Of a stretch of 64,000 nt of DNA, positions 2,130-63,432 are shown piece by piece. This DNA is from Parelaphostrongylus tenuis. Taxonomy: Eukaryota > Nematoda > Chromadorea > Rhabditida > Metastrongylidae. Positions within the stretch are counted from its first letter, which is position 1. Every line of letters begins with the position of its first letter. The translations under genes and the position numbers were made by a program. The DNA lies in NCBI GenBank assembly GCA_019055375.1, contig JAHQIW010000805.1, forward strand, positions 62,001 to 126,000, given 5' to 3'. The notes below the pieces were generated by a model that was not told where the DNA came from, searched no databases, and saw nothing but the letters and a program-made list of their open reading frames with translations.

Positions 2130-2420
2130 ACTTGCCAGTCAACTCACTTGAGTGTTTATGGAGTTCAAAAAAGAATGTTCAAAGCTTAAGCGAGGTTGGT
2201 ACGCCAGGGCCATACACCGGTGTTTCTAAGGTCTCGCCCTCCTCGTCAGTGACCCACGGCCCACATTAAGCCCTGCACTGTAGCGAGGAGGGAGGCGTAA
2301 GTGGTGACGGCACCGTGTACAATGACACTGATCCATCACCACCTCTCAGTCAATGGATCTCGGCTGGTAGAACAAAATTGGTCCATGGCATCGACTGTTT
2401 TCAAAACCTCTTCAATGAAC
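2130..2420 (-). repeat. Hammerhead-bearing repeat unit (same family as 27.0-27.6 kb)
   Basis: Shares an ordered set of segments with the units at 27046-27590: an AAAGCTT-containing block, a GTCGCCC/GACCCACG block with the ribozyme core on the minus strand, and a downstream ATCGACTGTTTTCAAAAC segment. Short open frames across it are incidental. Confidence 0.55.
2207..2255 (-). ncRNA. Predicted hammerhead ribozyme, nearly complete
   Basis: Minus strand reads GGGUCA-CUGACGA-(stem II)-GAAA-CACCGGUGU-A-UGGCCC. Stem I GGGUCA/UGGCCC pairs over six positions (one G-U). The core CUGANGA and GAAA are present, and stem III is a short palindrome that can fold as 3 bp with a CCGG loop. The cleavage-site nucleotide would be A. 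Stem II has one terminal mismatch. No activity is shown by sequence alone. Confidence 0.6.
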
Positions 2421-3036
2421 ATTCGAATAATCTATTTGTATTTGGATTATTATACCACTGCGAAAAAACAGCAAAAACAAAAGGGAATCTTAAGAAATAA
2501 TTATCCACCGAAAAAAGATGGGGCTTTTATGGCAACCGTCTTATCCTTTGAATGTTAACGATACCTATGTGAAAGACATCGTTTCCATGTGCCTGCCGAG
2601 CCCATTAACATATCCTGAACCTAGTGACTGATGGATATAAGCAGCGTAGCGAATGAAAGGCGTGTTGGGATCGGCGCAAAATTCAAGGTTGACTATAAAA
2701 ACTGGTCAATTATTTAGCAAGTAGTAGTGTAGATTTGTGGATATTCAAAGTCACCGCATAACTCTCGGCGAAAAGTTAATAGAAGCTTTGTCATTTCGTC
2801 TCTGAATCTTAGTCATAAATAAGCTGTGGAAAAAAATGGCTGTTGAATGTTTGAGATGTTAAAGAATCACGAGCCGTTGAATACGATATGATGCATTGCT
2901 GCTTTCTCAGGATAGTGATGCTATGCATTTTTCATTATCAAATTTTATTCGATTACTTCGATGAATTGGTAATTTATTTGATGGAAAACGGCTGTAAGCA
3001 GCAACAAGAATGATTAATTCTGTGTTCTATCAATGA

Positions 3037-3312
3037 CGCGCCACACACAATGTTGATGGTTCGATCTGGCGCTCATAGCTCACTAAGCCATTCATCCCTC
3101 CGGGGTCGGTAAACTGGCACCACACTGTTCTCAGACTTGTCGGGGAGGATAAGCAGCACTGACTCGATACAGCGTAAGGCTACCCCGCGAGTCATTGTAA
3201 AGGCCAGGTATGCATCTAATCACCTCAAACGAAGCTAAAAAAAATTGAAGACGGATGCATGACGCATCCCTCAGGCATTGATCAACGCCAAGCTTTATCC
3301 TTTATCCTTCTA
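3037..3312 (+). mobile_element. tRNA-headed SINE, family 1 (head truncated)
   Basis: Retains the B-box-like GGTTCGATC and the family body: CTCATAGCTCAC, GGATAAGCAGCACTGACTCG, CATTGTAAAGGCCAG, and the terminal GAGCTTTATCC-like end. The A-box part of the head is missing. Matches the copies at 7079, 32245 and 63590. Confidence 0.75.
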
Positions 3313-3779
3313 CCATCAATCAGATGTAGTGAGATCTAAAAACGCCACAACTGTTTTCTTTAGTTTTCATTCCTGAGATTCCTTCTCTTCACGTGGATTC
3401 TATAACATATCAACCAACAACCTCCAGTATGATATTCAGCGCAAATGCGTTCTTGACCCAAAAGACTATGTGGACGTTAAAATATACATTTTCAAATCGG
3501 TGGGGTTCCCGACCACATTATGTGTATTCATTCGATAACTAATCATCAAAATAGGAGGATAATAACAGCAAAGCCGTTCTCTTCACAATTTCATAAAGGA
3601 AAAACGTTTCGGACTAGATCGTTGACCGGTAATTTGACTGATAATTGAGTCTTATTTCATTAAATTGCTATGACGAATCTTGATTGTTGCATGAATGTGT
3701 GAGTACCAAGAGATTGGAAATGAACTCATCAATTTTGACAAGCCTTTCCAAATACCGGCATCAGTGTGTTGCACGATTG

Positions 3780-6520
3780 ATGATCACAGTCACCAGTACC
3801 ATCTACCCTCCTGTTGGTTGTCGAATGACTCGATCGGGCGCCAGCACAATTACATTTTTCCCCGTCACGTGCGAGAGTAACCTAGTGGGTCCTCATCCCT
3901 GTAGGTAGTCATTGACCATCATATCTTCCTTCCTTGTGAGCTTCTTGTGAAGAAATCAAACCATCGGGTGAGTGTTTTTCCTGGGTACATTTGACATATC
4001 GAGGAATCCGATCGAAAACAGTTCTCGTCCCTCAATTGACGTTAAAACGTAAGTGTCCTACCCACTTTATTTTCGATAGTCTGGTATACGAAACGCCATT
4101 TTTGATTTTCGATCGCTGACGTAAATAAGAATATCGAATTCTTTCCCATATGTGTGATACGCGACAATACTAGCATCGCCTTTCGAGTGAGCACTCAATA
4201 ACGACAAATGACTAAGCATACCGCTACGTAGCTACCAGGTTTCTGGTGCATATGTTAAACCTTTGACTTTCACAGACCCAATCCCGACTACGAGAGACTC
4301 AACTACGACACAACATTACGTCTCGAATGTAACCTTCCACATAGTTCTTAGTAGTGTTGTCTCTTTTATTTATCTCTAGCGTGAATTCATGTTTTTTGTT
4401 TGTGGTGTTCAACGATCGGGCCTAGAGGCCTCTGAAACTACTGAGAGCAACACCACAAATAAACAGCACCAGTTTGCTCTAGAGATGAATAAATTCGACA
4501 GCACTACTAAGAACTATGTGGAATCTTACATTCTAGATATAAAGTTGAGTGTCGTAGTTGGGTTGGGTCTGTGGAAGTCAAAGAGTTAAAGGCAGAGAAA
4601 ACTGTTAACTACACGGGTCGAGTGTCCTTTGTCACACTACATCTTTGCTGCTCTTAAACGTTTCCAGTCTCAACTTTGAAACTAAGTCGTTCATGATATT
4701 GATTCTCAACATAGATAGACATCGCTGCAGCATGTGGAAATATTCGTTCAGTTGAGCGTGATTGTGGCATTCGAAACCAATTCGTTCCTTGTGAATATCG
4801 ATTTCGTATATTTGATTGAAGACCAATCTTTCCAGGACAGTTATCGATATCGGTCAACATCTGTTGCGCCTGGGTGATGCTTGATGTTATGGGAATGGAC
4901 GTCATCAGCATACGGTGATGATGTAATTGTCGCTTATGGATTTTCACTCCCATGTTGTCTCACTCTATTGTTAGTATGATGCTCTGGAGGGTGGAAGTGA
5001 TTTATTTCGGCGAGGTGGTGTCGCTTAGTCAAACTCTGCTTCTTACGTCGACAGTAAAATCGCTATACAGTCGTGATGTTCTGGATGGAAAATCTTTAAA
5101 TGCCCACGAGGAATTTCCATGAATTTAGAAGAGAGGTGCTGGCTGTCTACAGCTCCTTTGACTGCTTCTGCTCCAACAGAATCAAAAGCTCTCTTGAAAT
5201 CAATGGAAATGAGAAAGATCGGTCTTTTGTAATCTCTTCGCAATTCAACGAGTCTTAATATGGTGTGGTTGCGGTCTTTAGTATTGAATTTTTTTTAGCC
5301 AAACCCCTGCTTATTCCCGCGCCTGTCCCCTTCACTGTTCTCACAGTCTCACAGTCCTGCTCAGGGATAACTCGAGTGAAGAGTCTATAATTACAGACAA
5401 CAAACAGATTATGCGATAGTTTCCGATGTCGTGAATGTCTCCCTTCTGAACAGTAAAACAGTTTTGCTTGTTACCCATTATCTGAGAATTTTGTAATCTG
5501 ACAGATACTGTGTAAAAAGCCAAGCAAGTGATGCTAAGAACAGGAGTAAGAATCTGCAGGTGCTTGAGTCTTATCCTACTTGCTTCTAGTGTTGTTCCAT
5601 TTTTCACCCAACAAATAGCACGTGGGATTTCGTGGCTTTGCGAAAGCTCTTAACTAGCTTTTGCAGAAGTAGTCAGAACTGCTGCACTTCTCCCTTTAAG
5701 ATCGTCTTTTATCACTCCACGGCAGCGTTTAACTGGTTCGGACATGAATGTCAATTTCTTAAGGCTCGCGCAGTTCCACTTTGGCGTAGCAGCTCGAGAT
5801 TTCCGGTGGCAAACGTCTTTTGGTGACTTACAGGCTCTGGGCCTTCATAGTGAAAACGTGAAGATGTCGGATTATTTGGTTTGTTCGTCGTTGTTAGTGA
5901 CGCTATCTTCCTAAGAAGCTACTTCTAATCAACCTTCTAAGATTCGAGTGAACCTCAGTTTATAGCGGTTTTGGGATTTCCTTGTTTAATCATGGTGGCT
6001 TTCACTCCTTTTCGCAAAGAATGGAATGTTGCGCGAAGGAGGCAATGGTCTGATATGGCGTAGAATTTGAAACAGCGGCGACATCGGATAGGCATAGCCT
6101 CCGAATTACTAAGTGTAATCTGTTTCGTTATGCTACTCTTCACTGAGAGAATGCCACGTTCACCGCTCAGAGTGAGTGGGGCTTTTGGAACGATGAGCTA
6201 CCATGGATGTTTCTGGTCGTCGAAATAGATATAGATAGCCTTTCAACCTGTTTGTTCCATTCTAGTCCGTGAATAAATCGATGCTTATGGTCACTCTCGT
6301 TTTGACGAGAATACAAGTGCTGCCGACACGTCTACCATCGCATGTTCCAGAAGACAGTTCTTCTCTGGTGTAACAAACATCATAGAATACATGAGGTCAT
6401 CTCGTCTCATCCAGGCTGATAATGTCGTGCCTTACCCTCCTTGCCCGCATTGTTGAATCCTCCAGAGGATCTGTATGTAAGTGTTTGTGCGTTGTCCATG
6501 GTCCGTTGCGACTTTAGCAT
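3780..6520 (-). mobile_element. Decayed near-full-length RTE-type retrotransposon
   Basis: Runs from an eroded 3' tail near 3780 up to the N-terminal endonuclease near 6500. Recognisable pieces on the minus strand, in order: an endonuclease start resembling the TYNAR motif, EELxxGTCDxR (about 6340), the FYxxSDH endonuclease end (about 6060), RT fragments such as FLISIDFKRAFDSV (about 5210), and MGVKIxxRQLxH (about 4950). Every frame carries stops and shifts. It covers more of the 5' end than any other copy in the window. A MITE interrupts it at 4255-4589. Confidence 0.8.
4255..4589. mobile_element. TTAA-flanked MITE inserted in the decayed RTE copy
   Basis: Arms of about 130-150 bp are inverted copies: left TTTGACTTTCACAGACCC against right (reverse complement) TTTGACTTCCACAGACCC, continuing through CCACATAGTTCTTAGTAGTG. 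TTAA is at both ends (4255-4258 and 4586-4589). Flanking RTE sequence resumes exactly at the TTAA: intact copies read ACGTTAGAGCAG where this one has ATG-TTAA-[element]-AGGCAG. This fits piggyBac-type TTAA targeting. Confidence 0.8.
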
Positions 6521-7687: not shown

Positions 7688-7982
7688 GAAACTGGGAAAA
7701 AGACAAGAAAAGCTTAGGAACTAATCTTTATTTTGAAGCTTAGCGAGGTTCGAATTTCTTCTTCGATTGATTGTTTCTTCTTGACTATCGATGGACTTCG
7801 AAGGACTAGTCTCTAGACCAGATAACAGGACTTTGTGGAAGGTGTACGCGCCGAAAAGTCAGCCACCGATACTCAATAACATCCATCGATAGTCCAAGAA
7901 CAGCCGATCGAAGAGATACCTGCCTCACGAAAGCTCAAAATAAGAATTAGTTCCTAAATTATTCTTGTCTTTCTCTCAGTTT
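7688..7982. mobile_element. MITE/foldback element, about 295 bp
   Basis: Outer arms of about 100 bp are inverted copies: left AAACTGGGAAAAAGACAAG and AGGAACTAATCTTTATTTTG against right (reverse complement) AAACTGAGAGAAAGACAAG and AGGAACTAATTCTTATTTTG. GACTATCGATGG also recurs in both arms. No coding capacity is visible. Confidence 0.65.
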
Positions 7983-13261: not shown

Positions 13262-13318
<57 letters not shown>

Positions 13319-16362: not shown

Positions 16363-16554
16363 AAATACGTCCTTATTTTTTAAATATGACTCGAGCGAAG
16401 TGAGTATTTCTCTCTTAAAGTCGATGGCTAACGTTTCCGCAATTGCCTTCCTCACAGCCTTTCATAAATAAATTGCTGGACAATGATGGGTGCTCTGTGA
16501 TTGGTGAATATCTGAATTGATTTCTTCCCTGAACTGTTTCTGAACATTAGGGGA

Positions 16555-17142: not shown

Positions 17143-17180
17143 CTGGGCCCTGATGAAGGTGAAAACGCCGAAACTCCCAA
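17143..17180 (+). ncRNA. Hammerhead-like core, no stem I found
   Basis: CUGAUGA (17150-17156), a stem II GGUG-AAAA-CGCC, then GAAA. I could not pair flanking sequence as stem I or find a clear cleavage triplet, so it may be a decayed copy. Confidence 0.3.
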
Positions 17181-17414
17181 AAGCCGCCGAATTTGGTATG
17201 AAATTACTGACCCAGCGGAAGTTTTGATTTGGAGAAAAGACAGTTCTCAAGATATTTTGACATGCACATCACGAAACTAAGTAAAATTTGGCCTTTTCAA
17301 CTGTTAGAAAAATGGGTTATCGCTTGCCCTCCCCCTTTCCCTCTCCCTCCCTCCTTTCCCTCCTTTTCCCACAGCTTAGCGATACACCCGAAATCGATAA
17401 AACGACGACCGTAC

Positions 17415-19028: not shown

Positions 19029-19470
19029 AAAATAATTAGGAGAGGTTTTAATAGGATGATTTTTGGTTGAAGCATGTCAAAAAATTGCAAAATATGAATG
19101 TGCTAGAATTTTCTGGGACCTTTTAAAGATCTAATATGGCATCTCGAGTGCTTGACAGGCTGGCTCCTCATCGATAGCAAACAATAAATTTTTGATTATT
19201 TACATTAGGAGTGAGAACCCCTATGGAAATTCATAGGGAACTTTTTCCTATTGTTCCATGAGCGCTAGCTTTTGTCTATTGACTTATACTTTACGATGAA
19301 CAACATAATTCGTTGAAGGCTTTGCCAGTAATCATGCGCACTAATTCGAAACTTAGTCGGTATTCTGTTCGTACGACGTACTATGAAGGTATCTTCAGAA
19401 ACGAAGCACAGTAATAATGTGATATCATGATAACATGTTTTGAGCCGATTGTCGTGTCTGATATGGGGCA

Positions 19471-19518
19471 CTTATAAGACAGGCGCCTATTTCGTCCTTC
19501 CGGACTCATCAGTAGCAC
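19471..19518 (-). ncRNA. Predicted hammerhead ribozyme with canonical core
   Basis: Minus strand: GUGCUA-CUGAUGA-GUCC-GGAA-GGAC-GAAA, then AUAG-GCGC-CUGU and C. Stem II (GUCC/GGAC) is perfect and stem III has four pairs with a GCGC loop, giving a GUC cleavage triplet. Stem I is weak here because about 10 nt present in the partner arm seem to be deleted after the cleavage site. Confidence 0.55.
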
Positions 19519-19669
19519 AATTTCCCCTCGGTTTAGGCGATCCTTTTAGAAATAAATCCCTATGTGAAGGAACTGACGCCGCATGATAAACCACAATCGA
19601 GTGTCTGTCGGCGTCGATTCCTTCATGTAGGGATATGTTCTTAAGGGAGCGGCTATTCCGAGGGAGACT

Positions 19670-19716
19670 GTGCTACTGAGGAACCCGGAAGTCGAAACAG
19701 ACACCTGTCTAGGCAC
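19670..19716 (+). ncRNA. Predicted hammerhead ribozyme with complete stem I
   Basis: GUGCUA-CUGAGGA-(ACCCGGAAGUC)-GAA, then ACAG-ACAC-CUGU-C and UAGGCAC. Stem I GUGCUA/UAGGCAC pairs with a single bulge, stem III has four pairs, and the cleavage triplet is GUC. Stem II is the weak part. Confidence 0.6.
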
Positions 19717-20584
19717 TTTGTAAGTGCCCATATCAGACATAACAATCGGCTCAAAACGCGTTATGATGTCATCACATTATTATTGCTTTGAGTGGGGTCT
19801 ATACAAATGGTTTTAGAGTAGGGTATGATTCATTCTACCAAGCACAGTATTGAGATTTTCACTTCCCAGACTATCGAATGATTACTTATAGTCCAGTGAA
19901 AAAACTCTTCCCCGGAAAATAAATCCTAGGAATTACGAACATAATCAGCAGAAGGCCTTTACATTAATCAAAATTCGTTCTGAAAAAAACAAAGATTTTC
20001 TTTTGACGACTGGGCTTTTTTTCTATTCAGAAGATTTTCACAGAAGTCTCCTTAGGAATACTCAATTTTTTTTGCAGCAACAAAGTTTGCTTTAGATAAA
20101 AATTTTACTACATAAGCCAAAAAAAAAATCCGTTGTGAAGTTGAAAACTGAATTGCGATTACTAAACATCACTTTTTTCGTCAGTTTAAAAGTAATATGA
20201 AAAGCGATCTTACAAATCAAGCATAGTAGCAAAATCCGAATTTCAAGGTATTGTTTGACCTACCAAGCATAAAAATGAGAAAAAAATGTTCGGTTAATAG
20301 CTGAAATATGTTCTTTTCGCAACCATCTTCTTGATAGATTCATGCGCAATTTCAAGAGGCTCGTAACGATTTTTACTCAGATTATCCTTAGAGAAGTCTC
20401 TTCTGTGATAATCTATCATTTAGTGAAGGCAATGTTTTCCTTGGGACCTTTAATCAACCGGATTTCTATCGGAGGGGCGCTCCAGTCTTAGTAGCCGTCC
20501 AAACAGGGTGGACAACTTGAAAGGTCTTTCGACCTCTCATCATCGGTAAAAGGTGAAAGTCAGCATTTGTTTGAATATCTTGAA

Positions 20585-27080: not shown

Positions 27081-27126
27081 AGCTATACGTACGTTTCGAC
27101 GGTGTCGCCCGCTTCATTAGTGACCC
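27081..27126 (-). ncRNA. Hammerhead-like, core mutated
   Basis: Minus strand has CUAAUGA (G5 changed) and GAAA with a GGCGACACCGUC stem II; stem III is the palindrome ACGUACGU. Confidence 0.4.
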
Positions 27127-27491: not shown

Positions 27492-27538
27492 TGGTCCCCT
27501 GATGAAACGAATGACACCGCCGAAACGTACGTATGGTT
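27492..27538 (+). ncRNA. Hammerhead-like, stem II damaged
   Basis: CUGAUGA at 27499-27505 and GAAACGUACGU are intact; stem II reads AACGAAUGACACCGCC where relatives have GGGCGACACCGCC. Confidence 0.4.
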
Positions 27539-38146: not shown

Positions 38147-38446
38147 AGGCTGTGATTGACACATATAAATAGTGTAAAAAATAACCGTATCGAGCATCAG
38201 TAGGATCATAATATTACTAATATCGCTCTTCCGGTGATGCTTCAACACTGATCAGAACTTTCTTCAAAATCTGACGTAAAGATGATGAAGTATGGCAGTT
38301 AACAAGAAGATTACGAACAAGGAAGAGTTTCATAACTCGGAAAATAGTCTGTATCATAACATAAACAAAAACTGCTAGAACACGATAATTTTGTTACAGC
38401 ATTATAATTACCAACTCATGTAACCAACGATTCTAGGGGAAGTAAT

Positions 38447-39716: not shown

Positions 39717-39832
39717 TACAAGATAGGATATTCTAAGATTCATTATAGTAACAACCAAAGTACGGCAAGATAGGATATTCTAAATTGTGAGAATGATTCG
39801 TTATAGTAACAACCAAAGTACGGCATCATAAC
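39717..39832 (+). repeat. Short tandem duplication inside copy B
   Basis: AAGATAGGATATTCTAA...GTAACAACCAAAGTACGGC occurs twice, at 39720 and 39767, the second with about 11 extra bases. Copy A has one unit (about 28447), so it arose after the duplication. Confidence 0.8.
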
Positions 39833-39882
39833 CATAAATGCTTATATAGAAGCAGCTGCGACACAAGATCAAAAATGAAATA

Positions 39883-40035
39883 ACAGGTTGTCACAAAGGC
39901 AATACGATCTTATGCACTGTTCAAAATTTGACAATTGATGCTGGAAAATTTGGAACATCTGTTCTTCAATACATGTGATTATATTATATATCGTTTTGAT
40001 TTTTTCGAATCCAAGTTGCTTTCGCACCAACCCAA
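39883..40035. mobile_element. Mariner-type MITE, copy B counterpart
   Basis: Ends ACAGGTTGTCACAAAGGCAA and (reverse complement) TGTTGGGTTGGTGCGAAAGC, preceded by TA; orthologous to 28570-28708 and more decayed. Confidence 0.6.
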
Positions 40036-41790
40036 CATTCCGCGAGGTACAGTGCGTATTAAACACTACAATGCCGAGATGCCAAAACAAGCTGAACTGA
40101 GAGACAATTTAATTGGAATTATATTGCTATAAAGTAAAAGAATTATAGTTGAAAAAGAATGAACAAAACATCTCTTAAAAAACAGTGACAGATCAGCAGA
40201 GGAACGAAAGTGTTGAACTAAACGGATTATTGCTAGGCAACAAATAATGGTACATTGAAAACCAACGCACTAGAATCTAAATCGTGATTCAGCGGAAACC
40301 TTACAATTTCCAAGGTCATACCAATAAAAGGCAAACTTGAATTCCTAAGCACGAAAAGAGTTTTATTGCATAGAGATTAAGTGTTTCTGTACGAAGTAAT
40401 CCGGAATGCATAGTTCCCTTCCCTTGGAGTGGGTTAGCCTCACCTTCACCTTGTCTTTTCCGTCATAAATCTATAAAAAATAGCTTTTACTACCCTTGAA
40501 AATTTGACGTAGAACGAATATACGATACTTCTATTTTGTTTGCCTTATCCACAAACGTCCGCGATCTATTTATTTTCTCATCAACAACATGATGAGGGCA
40601 GTAAAAGCACCATAGTGACAATATGTTTCGGTACAGTCTTTGAGATACACCAAATAATTGACTGCTTTTCTCTCTTGTAGCTTATTTCTTTCCGTTCTTT
40701 TTCTCCCAGGAACTGAATCATAGAACGGCTATTTCAGAAGAACCTGAAGGATTTCATCTTTTCCGGACTCCACGGTAGATACACACTGGTTTTGCTGTCC
40801 CTGGAGAGCACACTTCAATTGTAGGATACCCTCGGTTTTTGTGAAATGTGGTAATATTTAGAGTAGGGAAAGATCAGATTTTCACTATCATCTTTGAGTT
40901 GTCATTACCCTACAACATGATGTACTAAAGAATTACCAACCTTATCAAGAACTTCCATTTCGAGCCCGTCGATATCTGCTTTCATGAAGTATTCAACTAT
41001 TTGCTTGCATCTCAGCATGAAATCAAGGCGTTTCTAAATATGAATACAGTATTATGTATACAAAAACTCCAAAACGGTCTGCTATGATGGGCTTTCCACT
41101 GCTCCCAAAATTTTTGAAAATAAATGTTGCTATGATTACACAGTTATATTGGACTAGATAATGTTGGAACTGATCCTTAGTGTTGCTAAAATAGCTAAGT
41201 TGTTGAGTCGAAGCTAGTCTCCGAACTAATCTCCACATAACTGGTTGTTAGTCACGAGTATGAAACTTGCCCAAGCATCTACACACATCAAAAAAATCCT
41301 CTTTGTCTCAACTTTCGACACTTGAATTCATTGAGGATAAGCATGAGTTTTTACAAGACTAAGCTATCAAATCACCGTTATTGCCAAGAAAAAATTATTC
41401 AAGAAATTCATCACAATTCAAGAAGAGTAAGTCAATTACACAGAAACTGGTATTGTTCAAAAATGATGCAACAACATAAACCGCTCGTTATATCTGAAAT
41501 GCTTCTTCACTTTCTCACGCTTTCTTCAGGTGAGATAGTCTCTAAAGTGTGGGGCAAATGTTATCCATCTCTATAACATATGTGAACCCATATGTTGGAT
41601 CTGATAAACCACGACTGCAACCACGAATCTCTCCTATATGGGAAAACGGATTTCAACCGACCCTTTGCGACACTACAGGAGATTTTCACTGAAGAGAGAT
41701 AGATAAATTACCGCGTACGAATTACGGCCACATACTTGCCTCCTATTGATCTTATTCATCTACTAGCCTATCCCTCTAACTCTATCACTT

Positions 41791-42137
41791 CTGGTTCACT
41801 ATCTCTCATCTCATCCCTCACATACGAAAAAGGCGCTAGTAAAAAACATGTTTCGAACAGCAGCCAATGTATGTACCGGGGAGGAGCAGAAAGTAGAATC
41901 CGTGAAACTGGCTCGGGAAATAGCCATTTATAATGGATACGAATTTGTAACCCCTCGGCTTAGGTTTAGAGGAAATAATGCGCCTTCGAACGAAAACTTG
42001 AATGAAATGAAAGTCCCGTTTATTTATCCGTTATATTCAAATGAGATTAGTACAGCTATTGAACGATGTTTGAAAAGAGTGGGCTTAGAGCAATCGGTGG
42101 CCATTATAGAAATAGCACCGAATACTCTAAAACGCCA
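41791..42137 (+). pseudogene. Penelope polyprotein, linker segment before the break
   Basis: Open frame (LVHYLSSHPSHTKKALVKN ... LEQSVAIIEIAPNTLKR) typical of the stretch between the RT thumb and the GIY-YIG domain of Penelope-like elements. It ends at the RTE insertion point; the next codons (RQLVRNRLYDRLC) are found intact 2.4 kb downstream at 44560. Without the RT and the join it is not functional. Confidence 0.75.
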
Positions 42138-44549
42138 CTACTCTAACCACTCTAAAACGAATACTGAAGAACGTCACATAGGGACCCACGGACTAGAATG
42201 GAATGAACAGGGTGAGAGGCTATCCGAGTTTATCACGACGACCCAAATCATCCATGGTAACTCGCAATTCCAAAAGCCTCTCTCTCTGCGATGGACGTGG
42301 GAGTCTCCCAATGGAGAGTACCATAACGAAATAGATCACATCATAATAAATCGAAGGTTTTGCCTGACCGACGTCGCTGTTGTTCCCAAGTTCTACACGG
42401 GATGACCATCGCCTCCTTCGCGCAGCGTTCCGATTTTCGAGGAGAGGAGAGAAAGCCGCTAAATTTGAACAACGAAGTCCCAGAATTACCATAAACTGGG
42501 ATGTATTCAAATCATTAGTCGGCTCTTGGGAAGATACCGTTGTCGACAACATCGACGAAGAATACGATCGACTCGTTGAATATCTTCACGTTGGCGCTAA
42601 AAAAGCCGAAAGTCCTAAGGTCACGAAGAGACGCTTGTCTCCGCAGACACTCGAGCTGATACGTCAACGTGGAATCGCACGAGCCGCAGGTAACCGAAAC
42701 CTTACGTCCGAACTTGCGAAACGATGCAGAGAAGCGATAAAAGAAGACCTTAAAGAGAGAAGAGCAGCAGTTATGGCAGAAGCTGCAGAAGCTGGGAAGA
42801 GCATTCGCAAAGCCCAGCGAGGCTTCGCCAACTATAAGACCAAGATGATTGCACTCCGATACCCTGACGGGACACTTACAGCTTCCAGAAGGGCTATGGA
42901 GAAAATCATCCACCAGTACTACTCGGATCTCTTCGCTAGCCATGTTCTCTTACCGTCATATAAATTGAAAGAGGACGAATATGTCGTTCCACCGGTCCTT
43001 CCTTCCGAAATCCGACATGCTATATCGTCGGTGAAAAACAGAACAACACCCGGTCCAGACAGGATTAGACCCGAACACCTGAAGAACCTGCCGCCAGTTC
43101 TCATCAACACCCTGGCTCGGCTCTTCACTCGCTACCTGTCAGAATGCAAGATCCCTAATCAATGGAAGACCAGCAAGACCGTATTGTTGTTCAAAAAGGG
43201 AGACCTTCACGACATAGGCAATTATCGCCCAATCTGCTTGCTGTCCATTGTCTATAAACTCTTTACTCGAGTCATCCTGAACAGGATTGACAGAACACTG
43301 GACGAAGGACTGCCATGCGAACAAGCAGGGTTCAGAAAAGGATTTAGTACCATGGACCACATCCACACGATCACAAGACTCATTGAAGTTTCGCGAGAGT
43401 ACAAACAACCACTCTGTCTCACTTTTATCGATCTGAAAAAAGCCTTTGATTCAGTGGAAACAGAAGCGGTTATAGAGGCTCTGGATAACCAGGGCGTCCC
43501 TACTCGGTACATAATGATCCTTCGTAAGCTTTATAAAGATTTCACGACCAGAATATCTCCATTCTACAACAATATCACCATTGACGTAAGAAGAGGGGTT
43601 CGACAAGGCGATACAATATCGCCAAAACTATTCACTGCCACCCTCCAAAACGTCATGCGAACATTAGAATGGGACGAAATGGGAGTGAAAATTGACGGTC
43701 GACAATTAAACCATCTTCGCTTTGCTGACGATATCGTTCTCATGACACCAAACATCAGCCAAGCGGAACGAATGTTGACTGATTTCGATAACGCCTGTGG
43801 AAAGATCGGTCTTCAACTGAATCTAACGAAAACAATGTTCATGAGGAACGGATGGGTTTCTAATGCCCCATTCACGCTCAACGGAACGACAATTTCCGAA
43901 TGCTCCAGTTACATCTATCTAGGTCGTGAAATCAACATGATGAACGACCTAGCCCAGAGTTGAGCAGGAGGAAACGAGCGGCTTGGGGAACGTTTAAGAG
44001 CATCGAAGATGTAGTGAAGAGGACAAAGAACATCCGACTCCGTGCCCACCTTTTCGAGTCGACAATTATCCCTGCTCTAACGTATGCAGCAGAAACCTGG
44101 TCGCTACGTATGCAGGATGAAAGATCACTTGCCGTTATCGAACGCGCAGTCGAAAGGTCGATGCTAGGAGTATCTCGTATTTCGCAAATGAGACAAAGGA
44201 TCCGAACTTCCGACCTACGTCAACGATCGAAAATCAGAGACGCCGTTCTACACGCCAGGATATCGAAAATAAGGTGGGCCGGACACGTGATGCGCTTCAA
44301 CGACAACCGATGGACGAGAGCCGTTACCGACTGGATTCCTCGGGACGTCAAGCGCTCTAAAGGAAGACCACTGACCCGTTGGTCCGATTTCTTCACGAAA
44401 GCGATGGAAGAAAGATATGATGCTCAGCGAATTCCTAGAGCAAGGAGGACCCACTGGGCTACTCTTGCACGCGATAGGGAAAAATGGAAGAGTTGCTGGT
44501 ACCCGCTCGAGTCACTCGACGATCAACGGAAGGACAGGTGATACAGGTG
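42138..44549 (+). mobile_element. RTE-type retrotransposon, best copy, 16-bp target duplication
   Basis: Target duplication ATACTCTAAAACGCCA at 42122-42137 and 44550-44565. The copy is 5'-truncated inside the AP-endonuclease domain and ends in a short tandem tail (ACAGGTGAT repeated), which is typical of RTE-clade elements. 2412 bp. All other copies in the window end in the same tail. Confidence 0.9.
42144..44541 (+). pseudogene. RTE endonuclease-reverse transcriptase, two frame breaks
   Basis: Part 1 (to TGA 42403-42405): end of the AP endonuclease (IGTHGLEWNEQGERLSEF, NEIDHIIINRRFCL). After a small indel, part 2 (42380-43963) resumes in the endonuclease DHRLLR motif and carries the RT: QAGFRKGFSTMDHI (about residue 315), FIDLKKAFDSVE (motif A, about 348), GVRQGDTISPKLF (motif B), LRFADDIVLMT (motif C, about 447). 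At about 43950 a one-base loss in a C run ends it. Part 3 (43960-44541) holds the C-terminal domain (RWAGHVMRFNDNRWTRAV). Only two lesions, so this is a recent insertion. The 5' half of the endonuclease is missing. Confidence 0.85.
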
Positions 44550-44565
44550 ATACTCTAAAACGCCA

Positions 44566-44983
44566 ATTAGTTCGAAACCGCTTATATGACCGTCTCTGCA
44601 TAACGAAAGATTGTAAAATATGTCCTAACGGCAGAGGTGGTGATTGCATGAGCGTAGGTACAGTCTACCTAATCTCTTGCAAAGCGTGTAGTGATAAATA
44701 TATAGGCGAAACGGGTAGGCCGCTCTATGCACGCATAGAAGAACACCTAGCTGACAAGCGTCTTAATGGACGAAACACCCCGCTAGGGACGCATAGAGCA
44801 CAGAAGCACGACGGAGTTGATTTTGAAATCGAAGTCACCATCCTCGCGCAGGAGCAAAAAACATCAGCGCGAAAGATCTTGGAAGCATTTTGGATTAATA
44901 CGACCAATCCAACCATGAACCGCAGGGAGGAATGCCTTGTAAACACTCGTGATATGAGCCAGTATATAAGACTGTTGCTTTGA
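44566..44983 (+). CDS. GIY-YIG endonuclease domain of the Penelope-like element
   Basis: About 138 residues open to TGA 44981-44983. CKICPNGRGGDC gives a Cys pair before the domain; GTVYLISCKACSDKYIGET contains the GIY- and YIG-equivalent motifs; GRPLYARIEEH has the catalytic Arg; KILEAFWINTTNP has the catalytic Glu and an Asn. This Cys-plus-GIY-YIG layout is specific to Penelope-like elements, where the enzyme nicks target DNA. The reading frame continues upstream through the RTE tail as far as 44417, a chance fusion. No start codon of its own; expression is doubtful. Confidence 0.75.
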
Positions 44984-45186
44984 TGGGTAGGGTGCATTAC
45001 GAGCCTATGTGTCTCTCTTGCCGGTGATTTCCACTTGGATCATCCAGTGGAACACATATAAAAAGCGGTGAGTATGTTGAGTGTTGATTTTTGTTTGATG
45101 CCATTGAAATCTAGGTCTGGTGATTTTCTCTAAAGAAATAATGGAGGTGTTTGACTGATTGTATTGCAAACATTTTGTCCTTTCCA

Positions 45187-45221
45187 GGCTCTGAAGAAGG
45201 CGAACTGCCAAAACGTCAGCT
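45187..45221 (+). ncRNA. Hammerhead motif in the Penelope 3' UTR, G12 changed to A
   Basis: GGCU-CUGAAGA-AGGCGAACUGCC-AAAACGU-C-AGCU. Stem I pairs (GGCU/AGCU), CUGANGA is intact, but GAAA is AAAA. Position 200 bp after the GIY-YIG stop fits the known 3' placement of hammerheads in Penelope-like elements. Confidence 0.55.
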
Positions 45222-46187
45222 ATCGAGTAAAGTTTAATGTAACACCTCGTGTTCTGCTCAAAGAAGAAAATCAAGAATCATACTGAAGCATGCCGAGGTT
45301 AATAGACAGATACGCGAAATATTTCAGTTAAGCCAGAACATTTCGAGGATAAAGCCCGGAAAGAAAAGGTCGCTCCAGAATCGCCTACAGAAGAAAAAAT
45401 TCTTGTGTCTGAAAATACCCAGCCAGGGCTTCAAGTGGCTCTTCGACAGAAAGCGTTTGCAAAAATTTTACTGCTGGCTTAATTTACGGAATAACTATGG
45501 ATATGGGAATGTACGTGGAAATCGAAAATTAGAAGTTGCTGACATTTTACGTTTCAGAATTTATAACTCAGGAAGAATTACAGTCACAGTTTGTATTACG
45601 ATAAAAGCATGAAACAAGTTCAGTTCCTCAAAAACTTTCAAGATAACATATTACCGCGAAGCCGAATGTGTCACAGTATACTACAGTCTTATATTAGAGC
45701 ACCCAAATATCTAGAATAAGATACTGTACAGTAATGAAATACCATTTTGTTTCATTGAGATGCAGGTGTATGCAGGAAACGGAGTCTTTGTTTATGCTGC
45801 GTCAACTTGGTGCATACTTTTCCGTGCATACGTAAGCATGTTAATCATGTTTGCATGGTGTTCTCGCTCATGCAAATGCATTCTAGAGGTAAATTCACGC
45901 AAAACGGAAGAGAACCGTATACCGAGTGACTAGAAATCCACCAAACAAAGAAGCTCCATATGCGCTCCAAGAGAAACCAGAAAATTATGTGTAATCATAT
46001 TGCACCGCTCATCTGAGAGCTCGAAGAGACGCGTAGATATGAATACTCAAACACATCAAAATAAATTGCCCTCACTCACTTCACCTCGAAAAAGTTTTCG
46101 ACAAGCCAGAGTCGCTTAAAACAGCCAATGCAGGCCGAATTTGCGCCGAAAAGTACTTCTTTTTTGAAACACGTAGCTAAAGAAAGC

Positions 46188-46341
46188 GGCTGTTCATCCT
46201 CCCAAACATATCTGAGATCAGTCTCGCACTAATTTACGACACGTAGGGATGGATGCTCAGTGAATTATGAGTGCGAGGTCGGACCACTGACCCTGTGGGC
46301 GGTGCAGAGCAACTCTCATCACTGTTCCACATGCGCTCTTT
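46188..46341 (-). mobile_element. SINE family 1, head half
   Basis: Minus-strand head GAGCGCATGTGGAACAGTGA with a degenerate B box, and body to GGATGAACAGCC. Confidence 0.55.
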
Positions 46342-46420
46342 TAAGGCAGCTCTACTTACACATATTGCCAACTACGAAGAAGTGATGAAAAAAAAAGCTT
46401 ACAAAAGATGTTAAACTCAC

Positions 46421-46792
46421 CTCATAAAAGGTATCATAATCACCAACTGTGCAACAAATCGCAAATGGAGGTATTTCGTGGTAGTAATCAGAAAGTGGCT
46501 TCAATTGAGCATTGGATACCGAGACGGTTTTCCCCTCGTCAATTAGGAGAACGTTAATAGAAGAGTTCTGCTGAAACATAACTGTATTCATCTATGTCTT
46601 TTGCATGAAAAAAAAGGCACAAGAAAAACTACGAGTGCAAATGAAGAATGGATTATAGAGATTCATACGGAGTTTTGCACGGGAGTAGATACCACGCAAC
46701 GCTGCCATGTTCGATCATAAAAGACGGCAGCTCCATCTCCCTTTATCCACATTGGCCAGTTAGAATCCTCCATAGCGCCTTTGTAGTCGTTG
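46421..46792 (-). CDS. Tudor-domain exons (likely 3' part of the LOTUS/Tudor gene)
   Basis: Exon 46669-46792 (DYKGAMEDSNWPMW ... GDGAAVFYDRTWQRCVVST) ends at a GTATGA donor in phase 0. Exon 46421-46570 follows TTTCAG and reads QNSSINVLLIDEGKTVSVSN then AQLKPLSDYYHEIPPFAICC, ending at GAG|GTGAGT in phase 0. Together they give the Tudor pattern W-x-R-x-x-V ... V-x-L-I-D-x-G ... L-x-x-L ... I-P-P-x-A. Tudor domains bind methyl-arginine; in this family they recruit PIWI or Vasa partners to germ granules. Further exons must lie on both sides. Connection to the LOTUS exons upstream is inferred from strand and domain pairing. Confidence 0.65.
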
Positions 46793-47079
46793 CTGTTTGA
46801 TATGTTATGTAGAACTAATGTTTTCTCAGGTTAGATTAATTGAACTCAAAAAGAAGCCGACATATTCATTGAAAGATTACAAATACCAGTAATTCAAAAG
46901 CTGTAAACTGTGCTCATACTCAAACATAAGTCTTGATTTGAGAAAAACGATTGCGCAGTAGAAGCCACGGAACCACGTCGTCAAAGCTCAACTGTGAAGT
47001 TAAACCATTCAACCAGCATTCTATTTAGCAATTGAAAGTACTAAGAGATTGCGAAAATCAGAGTTTTAAAAAAGTTTCA

Positions 47080-48170
47080 CGAATACTTTCGGTTATCAGG
47101 TACGGAATAAAGGAAAGTTCCCTTTTGCTGTACAAAGATTTTCCATTGCAATTTTAGTAATCATTCGAGAGCCCAAATCTCGAGGGAGTGTTTAAGGTGG
47201 CTCACTTTTCAGAAAGGCCTTTTCATAGCGGTGTAGCATTCAGAACAAGTCACGCTTCACACGCGCCGCGTGTCATTATTATCGCGGTTATACTCGCTGG
47301 AAGCACGAAAAGCATGCGAACGTACAGAGCAAATTTCGTAGTTAACGCTATGTTTTATCTATATTTCTTGCAAAGCAAAGAAAATCCTATATTCAAGAAG
47401 AAAATTGCACTACACATGTGAATCGCGCTTGCACGATCGATTGACCGCGTATCGATGGACGGCCATACTCGCGTCCCAGCCAGCAAGCAAACGTGCAGCC
47501 TTTGTGAAAATCAATCAATTTCCGCTATTGCGCCGATTGAAACGGTCTTCAGAGAAAACCAACACAGAGCTGAAATAGTCGAAACCTACGCTATGGAATG
47601 CTTTTACTTATCATTCAAGGGAATAGCTATGTCCCGCGAGAAATGCGTGTGTGTGAAACATGAAACCTTTTTTGCTACAGCTGTGTCAAAAAGCTTTTTC
47701 AATATGAGAGTCAAACGTTTAATCCGGATTAGCTTCTGCATCGTAGCAGATATTTCATCAAACAAGAAAAATCTCACTCCATATAGGCTCCACCGATCAA
47801 TAGGCAACCCCCTTGCTCCCATAGGCCGCACCTCGCGAACTGGCCAAAGAACACATTCTTAACATATGTGACTCTATCTGAGTTCCCTCCTTACACTGCA
47901 CAGAAACAGTCTTTGCACAAAATAAGGGCAGCGCTTAAACCGCTGTTTCTCATGCGACTGAATGATTACTATTAGTGTAAATAAAGAGCTCTGCACTGCG
48001 AGAAAGACATGCGTGTGAAACACAAATGTTTTCCTTTCGCTGAAGCGATTTAAATTGGTATTTTTTAAATAAGTACAAGCAGCGCTAGTCAGTAATCCAT
48101 GATTTTGAATGATTACTAACAATCTTTAAGGGGAATTTCTGTTCAGCGAAAGGGATAAGCTTAGAAAACT
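47080..48170. mobile_element. Foldback element, diverged long form
   Basis: Left arm TTTTAGTAATCATTCGAGAGCCCAAATCTC at 47153 and right arm (inverted) TTTTGAATGATTACTAACAATC at 48104, with CCTTTCGCTGAAGCG near the outer end. The left half has a counterpart in copy A at 33720-34130. Confidence 0.5.
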
Positions 48171-49430
48171 GTGCTTCCAAAAGGAAAAATACCTTTGTTT
48201 TAAATGCTACTGCGCAACAAAAAGACCTTTTCAAGAATCGATTATGAAAAGTTGTTGTCCAGCAAAGAAGTGTCGTTTTTCCATTCCCTGTTGCACAACC
48301 GAATTATATCACCTTATTATATCGCTCCATGGGTAAGAACAGCATGCATGATGCTACTTACTATACTTTACTATCGCTCATCCTACAAGAGCATTATTGG
48401 AACACTTGATAACGTTTCGCAACTTTATGTTCAATATCAATAGATTCTACACTCCCACAACTGTGATCAACTACGGTTTTCATTAGAATTTTCATGACTG
48501 TAAACAACTCAGATCTTTTGCATATTCCCAAGTTCAAAACAGAAATTTTGTGAATAGTGCCCATCTTAACATCTTTATTCTACAAGCTATCGACTGAAAT
48601 AAACCTTGAGAGGGGCGTGTGTTCAAATCAGTACTTCCGATCCGAAGTGAGCAGCTTAATATGCATTGAAATCAATACTTATGCTGGCAAAACGTTTGAA
48701 ACTATGTGGCTTCTATCTATTTTGCCCTATCAGAAAATAGGCTCAAAGCAGCGTATAGGGTTTCAACAGCGGACTAGAATGGACTATTCACCTAATCGTA
48801 GAGTGTTCGTGTCGGTACCTGATGGTCAAGATCAATAAGGGCTTACTCTGATTCTCTCTATCAATACTTTTATGAATTAAATCTACTCCTAATATCAATA
48901 GAACGTGAAAAGAAATAGGTCGAATTTGACTCATACCTCAAATCCTCAAGCATGCTTCTGTATGCGCTGTCGTCATAACATGACCTTACATAGAACTCTT
49001 GCAATGTGATAAAATGTGTCAACCTCACCTGAAATACTCGATGTAATTGGCTAATATCGTATATGTATAAACAATTTGAGAGGTGTGCGTAATATGCGAA
49101 ACTTCACTGTTCACTAGTGGTACTGCTAAAAATAATTATTGATATCCCAGATTAATAATCTTGAAGAACTTTTATGTTCCCAGATGTTGTTAAAAACATG
49201 GTAAAGGACTTATTAGAGAACTAAGACAGTATGTGTATATGAGAATCTGTGGCGTAAGAACTGTCTCCGAGCCCATAATTTGATGTAGACTTCAAGGCTC
49301 TTATTTATACCGCTATTACCGCCAATATTCCTATTAGTAGTGATATTGGTGCAATAATTTCCCTATTTCGCATCAATTTTCCTTAAAGATTTCCTAGCAA
49401 ACGAGCGGAGTTGGTAACATTTCTTATTCT

Positions 49431-49465
49431 GCCAATGTTTTGATGTCTTCGTCTTCCTCAGAGCC
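49431..49465 (-). ncRNA. Decayed hammerhead-like motif
   Basis: Minus strand GGCU-CUGAGGA-AGACGAAGACAUC-AAAACAU-UGGC: core half intact, GAAA changed to AAAA, stem I partly pairable. Confidence 0.35.
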
Positions 49466-50026: not shown

Positions 50027-50488
50027 CTTGAAAAAAAAACTTCTGAAACGAGTCTATCACCAAAGTCTAATGTCTCTAATACTATTTCGTCTTGCTTTAT
50101 TATTCCTTCACTTCATTCTGTTTCTATTGCTCTAATATCAGCCATTCTTCCTTGCAAATACTCAGCATTAGGAAGAATATCCAAGTCATATTGAAATGAG
50201 CGCATACACCGCACGTCAGTGTTATCAAAAGATGTGTGCCAGTGAACAATGCCGCAGATAAAGTGGAGAATGCTTGCTATAGAACCGTACGGCTTCCGTT
50301 CCTACCACAAACAGTACAACTAGCATCGCCATGTCATACGGTGAACAGCAATCAAACGATGAAAGACAAAAATAACAATGAGATAGAACATTCTTGTTAC
50401 TGCAGCCAGAAAATACAAAGTCGAAAAACTACTTTCTCAACAAAGTCGAAGAACAATTCCCAGAAGAACATCATTTTTTCGCAGAATT

Positions 50489-51083
50489 CACCTGTATCAC
50501 CTGTTGTCCCGTTGATCGTCGAGTGACTCGAGCGGGTACCAGCAACTCTTCAATTTTTCCCTATCGTGTGCAAGAGTAGCCCAGTGGGTCCTCCTCGCTC
50601 TAGGGATTCGATGAGCATCGCATCTTTCTTCTATCGCTTTCGTGAAGAAATCGGACCAACGGTGGACCAGTGGTCTTCCTTTAGGGCGCTTGACGTCCCG
50701 AGGAATCCAGTCGGTAACGGCTCTCGTCCATCGATTGTCGTTGAAGCGCATCACGTGTCCGGCCCACCTTATTTTCGATATCCTGACGTCTAGAACGGCG
50801 TCTCTGATTTTCGATCGTTGACGTAGGTCGGAACTTCGGATCCTTTCTCTCATTTGCGAGATGCGGGATACTCCTAGCATCGACCTTTCGACTGCGCGTT
50901 CGATAACGGCAAGTGATCTTTCATCCTGCTTACGTAGCGACCAGGTTTCTGCTGCATACGTCAGGGCAGGGATAATTGTCGAGTCGAAAAGGTGGGCACG
51001 GAGTTGGATGTTCTTTGTCCTCTTCACTACATCTTCGATGCTCTTAAACGTTCCCCAAGCCGCTCGTTTCCTCCTGCTAATGG
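50489..51083 (-). mobile_element. 5'-truncated RTE insertion with 12-bp target duplication, in an intron
   Basis: TTTCGCAGAATT at 50477-50488 and 51084-51095. Tail CACCTGTATCACCTG, then the C-terminal RT extension in one long open frame (TYAAETWSLRKQDERSLAV ... RWAGHVMRFNDNRW). Close to the 42-kb copy and therefore young. Opposite-strand ORFs are shadows. Confidence 0.9.
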
Positions 51084-60445: not shown

Positions 60446-60639
60446 CTGAAAGGAAAGAATTTTTTTGATAGAATATTCCGATCATCGCTTCGCAGAAAAA
60501 AAGGACTTTTTTAAACGTATCTCATCTAACAGAATTCAATACGCTTCTTTCTTCTTCAAGCTTCTTCCTCTCTAACTTCATTATAATTCTCACAACCGAC
60601 TTCCATTATCTATGGCATCGACTGAGTATTTCAGTATTT

Positions 60640-61075
60640 GTTCCTAGATGAGCAGATGCGAGGTTGTTAGTCGTAGTAGCATATACTGAATACGCTAAAA
60701 CAGTGCAACGATAATAACACAATTACATATGTTTCGGCGGTTTGGTCCTTCTCAGATTCCGGAGAATTCAAATTGGCAATCAATCAATTCAGCCAAGCAT
60801 TTTCATAACCAAAGCACACGATACTTAGTACATAAACATTTAGTCGCGCAGAGAACAGCTTCGATCAGACACTCAGCGCTCTGTTGATTTATGGCCTATT
60901 GTCCAGCACCTATGAACACCAGCATCAACGAGTCTTCTTTCTACGGCGAGCACTGCGCTCTGGCATGATCAAAAATTCGGTTTGAAGATATGGCTCAAGT
61001 CACGAGTGATAACGAGGCACTCATCCTTGCTGTTCATTTTTGGATTTTTGGTGCTTCCAGACTTTTATGCACCAC
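60640..61075 (+). repeat. Dispersed repeat, copy 1 (copy 2 at 62440-62850)
   Basis: Shared anchors: GCAGATGCGAGGTTG, AACATTTAGTCGC, CAACGAGTCTTCTT, GAGCACTG, GTTCATTTT. About 70% identical. Hammerhead-like motifs lie in (60726-60764, minus, core G8 changed) and just after (61143) copy 1. Confidence 0.6.
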
Positions 61076-61142
61076 TCTACTTGGCTCGAATAGGACAAAT
61101 ACATGGAAGATTTTGAAGCATAAATAACCATCATCGAGTACA

Positions 61143-61178
61143 GGCTCTGAAGAAGGTGAATTCGCTGAGATGTCAGCC
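61143..61178 (+). ncRNA. Hammerhead-like, Penelope type, mutated
   Basis: GGCU-CUGAAGA-AGGUGAAUUCGCU-GAGAUGU-C-AGCC: stem I (GGCU/AGCC) perfect, CUGANGA intact, GAAA changed to GAGA. Confidence 0.4.
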
Positions 61179-61850: not shown

Positions 61851-62439
61851 TGTTACGGTAGATGACATCCCCAAGCAAATAATGAATGCAATGAGGCGAA
61901 TCGAACGCCAGAAGTACGAACCGCAAAGAACTGTGATACAAAAAAGTGATGAAGTATAAGATATAATCATGACTACTGACCAATCCCGTTGTAGACATCA
62001 CAGCGCCAAACGAATCTATGATTATCGCGCTTCCAAGGCACTCTGCAGCATCGCAAATTGCCGTGAAGCGTCTCAGGAAGGGATCGAACCAGCAACTCTC
62101 TTTCCAATGGACGGCATCTCCGAGCCCTCGCCGCAAAGGAGTGGTCGCCGCGCGCGTGGTGAGTCTGGGCCAGAGCCGTGACCTTGCCGTCGCCAAAGTG
62201 TCAACCCATTCTCGACTATCTCGAGCTGCATACGGAGTAGGCTTTGGCATGTTTTATGTTGGCCCATTCAATACGATAACCGTGGTTCACCATACGATTG
62301 GAATTGAAATAACAATTAATTACGAGAATATGAAATTACACGCTCAACATATGACAGCACTTGTCCTATAAGTGATTACTTTTGATAATTCCCAGAACCA
62401 GCTTGTTACTATCCACACCGTAGATTGAACATTTCAATA

Positions 62440-62850
62440 CTGTTCTTTACATCAGCAGATGCGAGGTTGCTAGTACAGTATTTTCTGAATACGATAAACA
62501 GCGCAATCTTAATAACAGAGTCTAGAAGATTCAGATTGACAAGCAGTCAACTTAGTCAAACATTTTCATAACAAAGAACATAAAATCTAGTAAATCAACA
62601 TTTAGTCGCATGGTAAACAGCTTCTTTCAGATACTCACTGCTCTGTTTATCTATGGTCGATGGTCCACCAGTTATGTAGACCAGCCGCAACGAGTCTTCT
62701 TACATTGGCGAGCACTGTAACAGGGCAAATTAAAAACTGGATTCGAGAATGGTGTGAAGTCAAGCGTGGAAAACGAGACACTCAACTTTACGGTTCATTT
62801 TGAATTTTAGGCGCTTAGAGAGTTTTGCGCGCCACTCTTGTACAGAAATA
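62440..62850 (+). repeat. Dispersed repeat, copy 2
   Basis: See 60640-61075. Confidence 0.6.
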
Positions 62851-63064: not shown

Positions 63065-63165
63065 GCAATACTTTTGCGCAGGGCGGGACTCGAACCTGCA
63101 TCTCACTCTATCCAAGTGTGCGTGATCTAACACAGTGCACTACTAACTCCCGTTTTGCCATCTTC
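63065..63165 (-). mobile_element. SINE family 2
   Basis: Minus strand GGAGTTAGTAGTGCACTGTG (A-box region), GCAGGTTCGAGTCCCGCC (B box), then CTGCGCAAAAGTATTGCGCATC. Confidence 0.7.
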
Positions 63166-63286
63166 TTTCTACGATAGAAGATGATTGCTGTGCTAACTGC
63201 TTAGCATCAAATTATGACTGCTATGATAGTGAAAGTGTTTGCCTGAGTAGACTGCATGTAAAATCGAATCATCCACATTCTGAAGA

Positions 63287-63310
63287 AGGCAAAACCGCCA
63301 AAACGTCAAT
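63287..63310 (+). ncRNA. Hammerhead-like, Penelope type, G12 changed to A
   Basis: AUU-CUGAAGA-AGGCAAAACCGCC-AAAACGU-C-AAU: stem I three pairs, stem II GGC/GCC, GAAA changed to AAAA as at 45187. Confidence 0.4.
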
Positions 63311-63396
63311 CCTTGTGATATTCGTCCTCGTCCATGTAAGACAAGACACAGTGCGGCTGGTGTACAATCATAGTGGACACCATAACAAAACGGTCA

Positions 63397-63432
63397 GGCT
63401 CTGAGGAAGGCAAGACTGCCGAAACGTTAGCC
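63397..63432 (+). ncRNA. Predicted hammerhead ribozyme, complete core, Penelope type
   Basis: GGCU-CUGAGGA-A-GGCA-AGAC-UGCC-GAAA-CGU-U-AGCC. Stem I (GGCU/AGCC) and stem II (GGCA/UGCC) are perfect and every core residue is present; stem III is just the self-complementary ACGU, which suggests activity as a dimer. Followed by a Penelope 3' terminus (AAGCCGAGGTTAATC) near 63540. Confidence 0.65.

Follow-up and report, generated by a model that had tools for sequence, protein, structure and literature searches.

Hammerhead-like ribozyme modules in Penelope-like elements and inverted repeats of the nematode Parelaphostrongylus tenuis

The stretch analysed here, referred to as the window, comprises 64,000 nt of the Parelaphostrongylus tenuis genome (assembly GCA_019055375.1, contig JAHQIW010000805.1, positions 62,001–126,000 of the forward strand) and is numbered from its first letter. 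It contains 19 small modules that resemble the type I hammerhead ribozyme, grouped into family A (10 copies), family B (4), family B' (2), family C (2) and one doubtful singleton (D), together with a weak twentieth at approximately 60724–60760 on the minus strand. A first-pass annotation of the same DNA had counted about eighteen such sequences, in good agreement with this total; several of the 19 have core changes. These motifs are real hammerhead-like modules, mostly decayed and ordinary in kind. We read them, with a probability of roughly 0.86, as mostly decayed copies of type I hammerheads, predicted to cleave, that reside in the Penelope-like elements (PLEs) and allied repeats of a strongylid nematode.

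The type I descriptor used for detection consists of stem I, CUGANGA, stem II (in which one additional A may follow A9), GAAA, the stem III region, UH and the second strand of stem I. Four window copies have the core CUGANGA...GAAA with U16.1 and H17 and both stems I and II. The descriptor places its four perfect-core structures at 2207 minus, 28000 minus, 63391 plus and 30085 minus, compared with a mean of 0.115 (maximum 1) in 200 dinucleotide shuffles and of 0.106 (maximum 2) for 179 permuted cores searched in the real sequence. The excess over chance is clear for perfect cores with stems (4 versus ~0.1). One-base core variants are weak evidence when taken alone, because the 8 structures with one core mismatch compare with a mean of 2.4 (maximum 7) in the shuffles. 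A scan for family A (at least 21 of 29 letters) finds 10 places, compared with 0.16 per shuffle (100 shuffles), and nhmmer homology grouping sorts the remaining modules into B, B', C and the singleton.

The PLE that carries family A is represented on the plus strand by an open reading frame (ORF) in two parts, an upstream part at 41785–42138 and a GIY-YIG part at 44489–44983 (Pfam PF01541, E 3.7e-8 for ORF 44375–44983; 96 homologues). The parts are split by an insertion (matches at 42139–44552) that we take to be of RTE type, and the reverse transcriptase nested in the PLE ORF is nearest to hookworm proteins. This PLE copy has its C-terminal GIY-YIG domain and a truncated reverse transcriptase part. 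The best named relative of the GIY-YIG piece is a P. tenuis protein with 66% identity; many of the 96 matches are nameless, and the named ones come from strongylid nematodes. A family A hammerhead (45187–45221, plus; G12 changed to A) lies 204 nt past the stop codon. On the minus strand, a remnant of a PLE C-terminus (60972–61055) is followed, ~209 nt past its stop, by the decayed hammerhead at 60724–60760, which has the stem III sequence ACAUAUGU; this place (60718–60765) is weak on its own, with 12.1 bits and E 0.33 in the family A covariance model. Among 30 family A loci sampled across the genome, 25 contain PLE protein, and the PLE stop precedes the ribozyme by 22–200 nt in 18 of the 20 loci with an upstream PLE end. 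The family A ribozyme is situated past the PLE stop codon and before the element's 3' end, in the position of the pseudo-long terminal repeat (pseudo-LTR). The first proposal, which put hammerheads at the 3' ends of Penelope and in inverted-repeat elements of a nematode, is borne out.

Family A is a minimal hammerhead. The copy at 63397–63432 (plus) has an intact core, stem I GGCU/AGCC, stem II and a loopless stem III, ACGU. The core is also intact at 30087–30119 (minus) and in the A-like copy at 17146–17181 (plus), which has lost stem I. The remaining plus-strand copies are found at 63276–63311 (G12 changed to A, with stem I AUU/AAU in place of GCU/AGC), at 61143–61178 (one core change; the right-hand partner in an inverted pair that adjoins a PLE remnant), at 30710–30745 and, with a decayed core, at 7829–7864. 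Those on the minus strand lie at 16426–16459 (C3 changed to G) and 49430–49465 (decayed, recovered by the family A scan).

Over 11 fixed core positions the 10 copies keep 102 of 110 letters, a figure that is inflated because the selecting scan scored the core letters except N7. Two features are unaffected by that scoring: N7 takes all four letters (the commonest in 4 of 10), and the flanks are about as dissimilar as random 50-mers (0.456 and 0.448 versus 0.438). H17 is T in 5 of 10 copies. Standard pairs fill 84.3% of the stem cells, compared with at most 56.5% when the partners are slid, and 18 of 500 shuffles reach the observed value. In all 10 copies one additional A, at a position included in the scan's scoring, stands between A9 and stem II. 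A viroid hammerhead, too, has one nucleotide more after A9. All 10 members of family A are recovered by the covariance model built on them; next come a partial match in a family B copy (27347–27365; 13.4 bits, E 0.13) and then noise, to which the 60718–60765 place belongs. This model therefore does not unite families A and B.

The window also contains a direct segmental duplication (28466–34245 versus 39779–47605), which is old, with pieces ~65–84% identical outside shared insertions, and which shows which insertions are later. The PLE block is missing from one copy of the duplication, and the insertions holding the 30087 copy (~29945–30195) and the 30710 copy (short, ~30656–30800) are missing from the other. 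The idea that 30087 and 30710 belong to a single inverted-repeat element was dropped, the paralogous segment showing two separate insertions. Elsewhere in the window, two related PLE 3' regions are present at 60583–61078 and 62385–62838, the latter without the ~34 bp where the decayed hammerhead sits. RTE-type non-LTR pieces occur at 3802–6483, 28818–29311, 37350–38155 and 50447–51081 on the minus strand and at 42139–44552 and 63904–63999 on the plus strand, with a further, weaker match at 26475–26984 (plus).

Family B is headed by a hammerhead at 2207–2255 (minus) with a perfect core, a 6-bp stem I and the stem III palindrome ACACCGGUGU. The copies at 27074–27126 (minus; G5 changed to A) and 27325–27376 (minus; decayed core) form a direct repeat with a period of 256, and the fourth, at 27492–27541 (plus; CTGATGA and GAAA intact, stems weak), is inverted with respect to both. 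Standard pairs make up 79.6% of cells, a share that 18 of 500 shuffles attain; sliding the partners gives at most 40.7%. Both-sided changes occur in stems I, II and III among the four sequences. The direct repeat is 256 bp with 38.7% GC, and the circular fold of this unit is not clearly stabler than that of shuffled sequences (−53.5 versus −48.2, standard deviation 4.8). Family B is tentatively tied to Penelope 3' ends through the tail motif ACCAACCTCGC, which is matched at 11 of 11 letters by the 2207 copy, at 10 by the decayed hammerhead at 60724 and at 9 by the family A copies at 30087 and 49430. Four more modules reach 8, as do 5.7% of random stretches, and the other 12 of 20 have 7 or fewer; the link therefore rests on the few copies that match well.

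The two B' hammerheads, at 35381–35416 (minus; C3 changed to U, stem II GGCU GCAA GGCC) and 35684–35725 (plus; core letters intact, stem II weak, stem III ACACGUGU), are both contained in an inverted-repeat element at 35341–35763 whose tails point outward. Family C has the same layout. Its element (19405–19790, tails outward) has arms at 19405–19581 and 19609–19790, which carry one hammerhead with core and stem II intact and the 3' strand of stem I deleted (19470–19518, minus) and another with core, a bulged stem I and stem III but a broken stem II (19670–19716, plus). A proposed 3' tail shared by C and A elements was rejected: in 28 comparisons, 45 to 1534 of 2000 random 50-mers score equally. 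The first-pass annotation had also described tandem units. Direct neighbours are confined to family B and to the pair 63276/63397; B', C and one pair of B copies are inverted.

Singleton D (28000–28046, minus) has a core and stems I and II, with stem III unpaired, and may be a chance occurrence. An 18-base direct repeat, GAAAGGTATGTGATACTG (28186 and 28056, minus), is found at the start of D and ~130 bp upstream. Among five copies singled out earlier for a pairable stem I, those at 2207, 30087 and 63397 have a perfect core with pairable stems I and II, but stem II of the 19670 copy is broken and the 28000 copy has an unpaired stem III region and no nhmmer relative in the window.

The genome-wide survey covered 481.5 Mb. 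A strict family A pattern (core and stem II) has 3749 exact matches, compared with none for the reversed control, and none in viral and prokaryote sequence collections. At the second pair of stem II, T is the partner in 20 of 84 copies with A as the 5' letter (among 100 matches listed of 277) and in at most 244 of 3993 copies with G. This compensatory change gives a Fisher P of 2e-7 with all 244 taken as T, which shared ancestry keeps from being a strict probability. Family C has at least 113 matches (best 40 of 745 candidates scored; the arms match both strands, so places count twice) and family B' at least 43 (best 40 of 3555 candidates scored). Genomic copies of both families show complete type I hammerheads. 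The C copies are old; their core keeps 373 of 408 letters and their flanks 82%, and stem II covariation taken alone stands out (reached by 11 of 1000 shuffles). The window had been thought unusual in density and in its mixture of families. For family A, the one class counted genome-wide, it holds 2 strict matches (63397 and 30087) against an expectation of ~0.5 per 64 kb, which does not show it to be exceptional, and the mixture reduces to the 3' ends of Penelope (A and, more tentatively, B) and a single further set of inverted repeats (B' and C).

The first-pass annotation had named background covariance-model scores for its five best copies as grounds for refutation, and with the Rfam models the window copies do score at background. 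A scan of the window yields no hammerhead at the gathering score and none at E≤10. On sub-stretches, RF00008 gives 17.5 bits at 19484–19517 and a misplaced 12.3 bits at 2226–2269, both below the cut-off, and two further sub-stretches give no hammerhead match; the RF00163 gathering score (34 bits) is reached by no window copy in the window or in these four sub-stretches. Among 17 genomic loci scanned, two relatives that are B'-like by eye pass the RF00163 cut-off (L075, 38.8 bits; L001, 34.9 bits). A second place in L001, L018 and L005 (31.0–31.8), L009 (27.7) and L015 (21.9) remain below it, and family A copies are not listed at E≤1 in these loci. The permissive scan alone also lists a tRNA-like RF00005 match above the cut-off (34469–34543, plus; 37.8 bits).

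Background Rfam scores are what would be expected if the modules were chance cores in AT-rich repeats, or some other conserved hairpin that does not act as a ribozyme. With 56 occurrences of bare CTGANGA in the window, single cores mean little, and D is perhaps one such occurrence. This explanation seems highly improbable in view of the shuffle and core-permutation controls, the recurrence of the same fold in several families with unrelated flanks, the variability of N7, the compensatory change among the 3749 genomic copies and the two genomic relatives above the RF00163 cut-off.

The segment between A15.1 and U16.1 is a recurrent structural feature of these modules. In a list of 19 that includes the decayed hammerhead at 60724 and leaves out the 17146 copy, it forms a perfect palindrome in 11 modules, pairs completely with the help of G-U in another 3 and does neither in 5. 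Six of the 11 perfect palindromes are the 4-base ACGU of family A, which the family A scan itself favours; the others have the sequences ACACCGGUGU, ACGUACGU, ACAUAUGU and ACACGUGU. The family B palindromes are loopless and 8–10 nt long. The shortest palindromes allow no hairpin loop, and a full stem III therefore requires two ribozymes. A computed homodimer of the 2207 copy (−64.7 versus 2 × −24.1 kcal/mol) is suggestive of cleavage as a dimer. Because the stem III of family A is typically a loopless palindrome, cleavage would most likely occur when two copies pair, whether these belong to one tandem transcript or to separate RNAs. Cleavage after H17, at the junction of stems III and I, would cut the PLE RNA into units.

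The orientation of neighbouring copies is strongly biased. Among the first 100 family A places listed, a hand count gives 17 neighbour pairs within 5 kb, of which 14 are (−,+), 1 is (+,−) and 2 are on the same strand (binomial 1.1e-6). Sixteen neighbour-pair regions, 14 of them (−,+), were analysed closely. In seven of the (−,+) regions the ribozymes are separated by more than 2 kb; here PLE pieces lie on both strands, head-to-head, with the ribozymes outward. Inverted arms are present in 13 of the 14 (−,+) regions, L076 being without any. Five are palindromic through the centre with 93–99.6% identity (L062, L070, L071, L073 and L074; L062 is a 99.6% palindrome of 2.59 kb), four have spacers of 126–150 bp, one has a spacer of 222 bp and three have longer inner gaps; the arms of L065 are ~2.1 kb long and 99% identical. 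An inverted partner within 1.5 kb, always with tails outward, accompanies 8 of the 30 sampled loci, which represent 5 distinct elements; the other 22 lack one at that distance. Several element ends carry an extra tail, and a comparison of longest common substrings revealed no target-site duplication consistent across 13 elements. In L063 (1–3138), a head-to-head PLE pair lies between two outward B'-like hammerheads, as if inserted in the centre of an older inverted pair.

Palindromes of such high identity, running through the centre in five of the 14 regions, could also be produced by assembly artefacts such as reads with missed adapters. Three observations make this very unlikely. The inverted match stops 52–132 nt beyond the left-hand ribozyme (by subtraction) in the 13 armed regions, near the element tail and with flanking DNA outside it, which argues against an adapter artefact; several ends bear the extra tail; and the old C pair of the window, with arms 74% identical, has the identical layout. 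The hallmarks of PLEs, namely 5' truncation, head-to-head inverted copies and an optional tail, are all present. Insertions are truncated at their 5' ends and occur either alone or in inverted, head-to-head pairs whose ribozyme ends face outward. Some palindromes have a short loop at the centre, as would be expected if the cDNA first strand folded back to prime its own second strand.

Families B' and C are less readily assigned to PLEs. Only 3 of 29 C loci contain PLE protein (some places being counted repeatedly, and two of the three being near-identical contigs), compared with 25 of 30 A loci. The majority letters of 38 C arms form a complete type I hammerhead with a 6-bp stem I, a GGAA loop II and a palindromic stem III, and genomic copies resembling B' are those that pass the RF00163 cut-off. 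These observations, together with the coexistence of PLEs and retrozymes in other animals described in the excerpts of PMC7229834, suggest that B' and C could be non-autonomous, retrozyme-like repeats rather than PLE pseudo-LTRs, with a canonical type I hammerhead, using PLE machinery in trans and deposited as head-to-head inverted pairs. We consider this a serious candidate, at somewhat less than even odds. It is opposed by the rarity of direct tandem arrays: when C arms are counted in 21 of the 29 loci, the other 8 being excluded because they repeat a place or come from near-identical contigs, 14 of 19 neighbouring pairs within 1 kb are (−,+), 3 are (+,+), 1 is (−,−) and 1 is (+,−). With 4 of 19 on the same strand and 14 head-to-head, family C does not show the direct tandem repeats of ~150–450 bp known from metazoan retrozymes. 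In addition, the loci cover only ~3 kb, from which a distant PLE ORF could escape. A more specific version, in which B' and C are palindromic retrozymes with two outward type I hammerhead arms, made by PLE machinery from fold-back cDNA of hammerhead-cleaved RNA, appears to us unlikely. In L028, the spacer between the C arms contains a 262-bp palindrome (96% identity).

Hammerheads in PLEs and retrozymes are known, as the first-pass annotation stated and as the available parts of PMC6155905, PMC7761336 and PMC7229834 confirm. The small PLE variants (Cervera and de la Pena 2014; Lunse, Weinberg and Breaker 2017), compared here through excerpts of PMC6155905 and PMC7761336, are minimal type I hammerheads with stem III minimal or absent, found in PLE pseudo-LTRs, and dimeric cleavage has been proposed for them; PMC3088659 remarks on palindromic sequences in stem III that would suit dimers. 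The modules described here share with them the type I fold, in family A the PLE 3' position, and a minimal, self-complementary stem III. They differ from the variants, as the citing papers describe them in part, in the nematode host, the extra A after A9 in family A and the loopless 8–10-nt palindromes of family B. Metazoan non-LTR retrozymes are described in the excerpts of PMC7229834 as canonical type I hammerheads in short direct tandems. The resemblance is to B' and C, with canonical hammerheads in short repeats, and to the 256-bp direct repeat of B; in contrast, the C copies are mostly inverted head-to-head pairs.

The closest parallel for the inverted pairs is the Adineta vaga Penelope, for which the available part of PMC3846280 describes head-to-head inverted pseudo-LTRs, palindromic junctions, a tail at one end and 5' truncation, all of which recur in P. 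tenuis. Here, unlike in A. vaga, the arms reach ~2.1 kb at 99% identity and hammerheads stand at both ends; the word 'hammerhead' occurs nowhere in PMC3846280. A literature search at listing level found no publication on PLE hammerheads in nematodes.

Several results weigh against the reading of the modules as PLE-borne hammerheads. No window copy attains an Rfam cut-off, and RF00008 has a single match over the genome, with 36.9 bits, below its cut-off (best 68 of 129360 candidates scored). The doubly changed pairs of family B are matched by 60 of 500 shuffles, and covariation over the whole structure of family C is not above that of shuffles (101 of 1000 for doubly changed cells, 52 of 1000 for paired cells). 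The ribozyme may moreover be dispensable for insertion, because the RNA of an Anolis PLE inserts in vitro without requiring hammerhead cleavage, with zero reads starting or ending at the cleavage site, according to the sections of PMC11167929 consulted. That element, the Poseidon PLE PAc, is likewise a GIY-YIG PLE with a hammerhead, located at the pLTR/ORF junction; the same sections describe an ORF that begins within the ribozyme, whereas the copy measured here lies downstream of the stop codon.

Taken as hammerheads of PLEs and related repeats, the P. tenuis modules fit published Penelope hammerheads and inverted pseudo-LTRs, and extend these to a nematode, in very large numbers and with young palindromes that have hammerheads at both ends. 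Such ribozymes can escape annotation, since the Rfam gathering cut-offs recovered none of the window's copies. If B' and C are palindromic retrozymes, the PLE palindromes would arise by the same fold-back, and the genome would preserve, on a large scale, a natural record of how PLEs synthesise their second strand. The 3749 strict family A copies, the young palindromes with arms of up to 99% identity and the old inverted pairs make two questions testable: the use of the hammerhead to the PLE, and the manner of second-strand synthesis.

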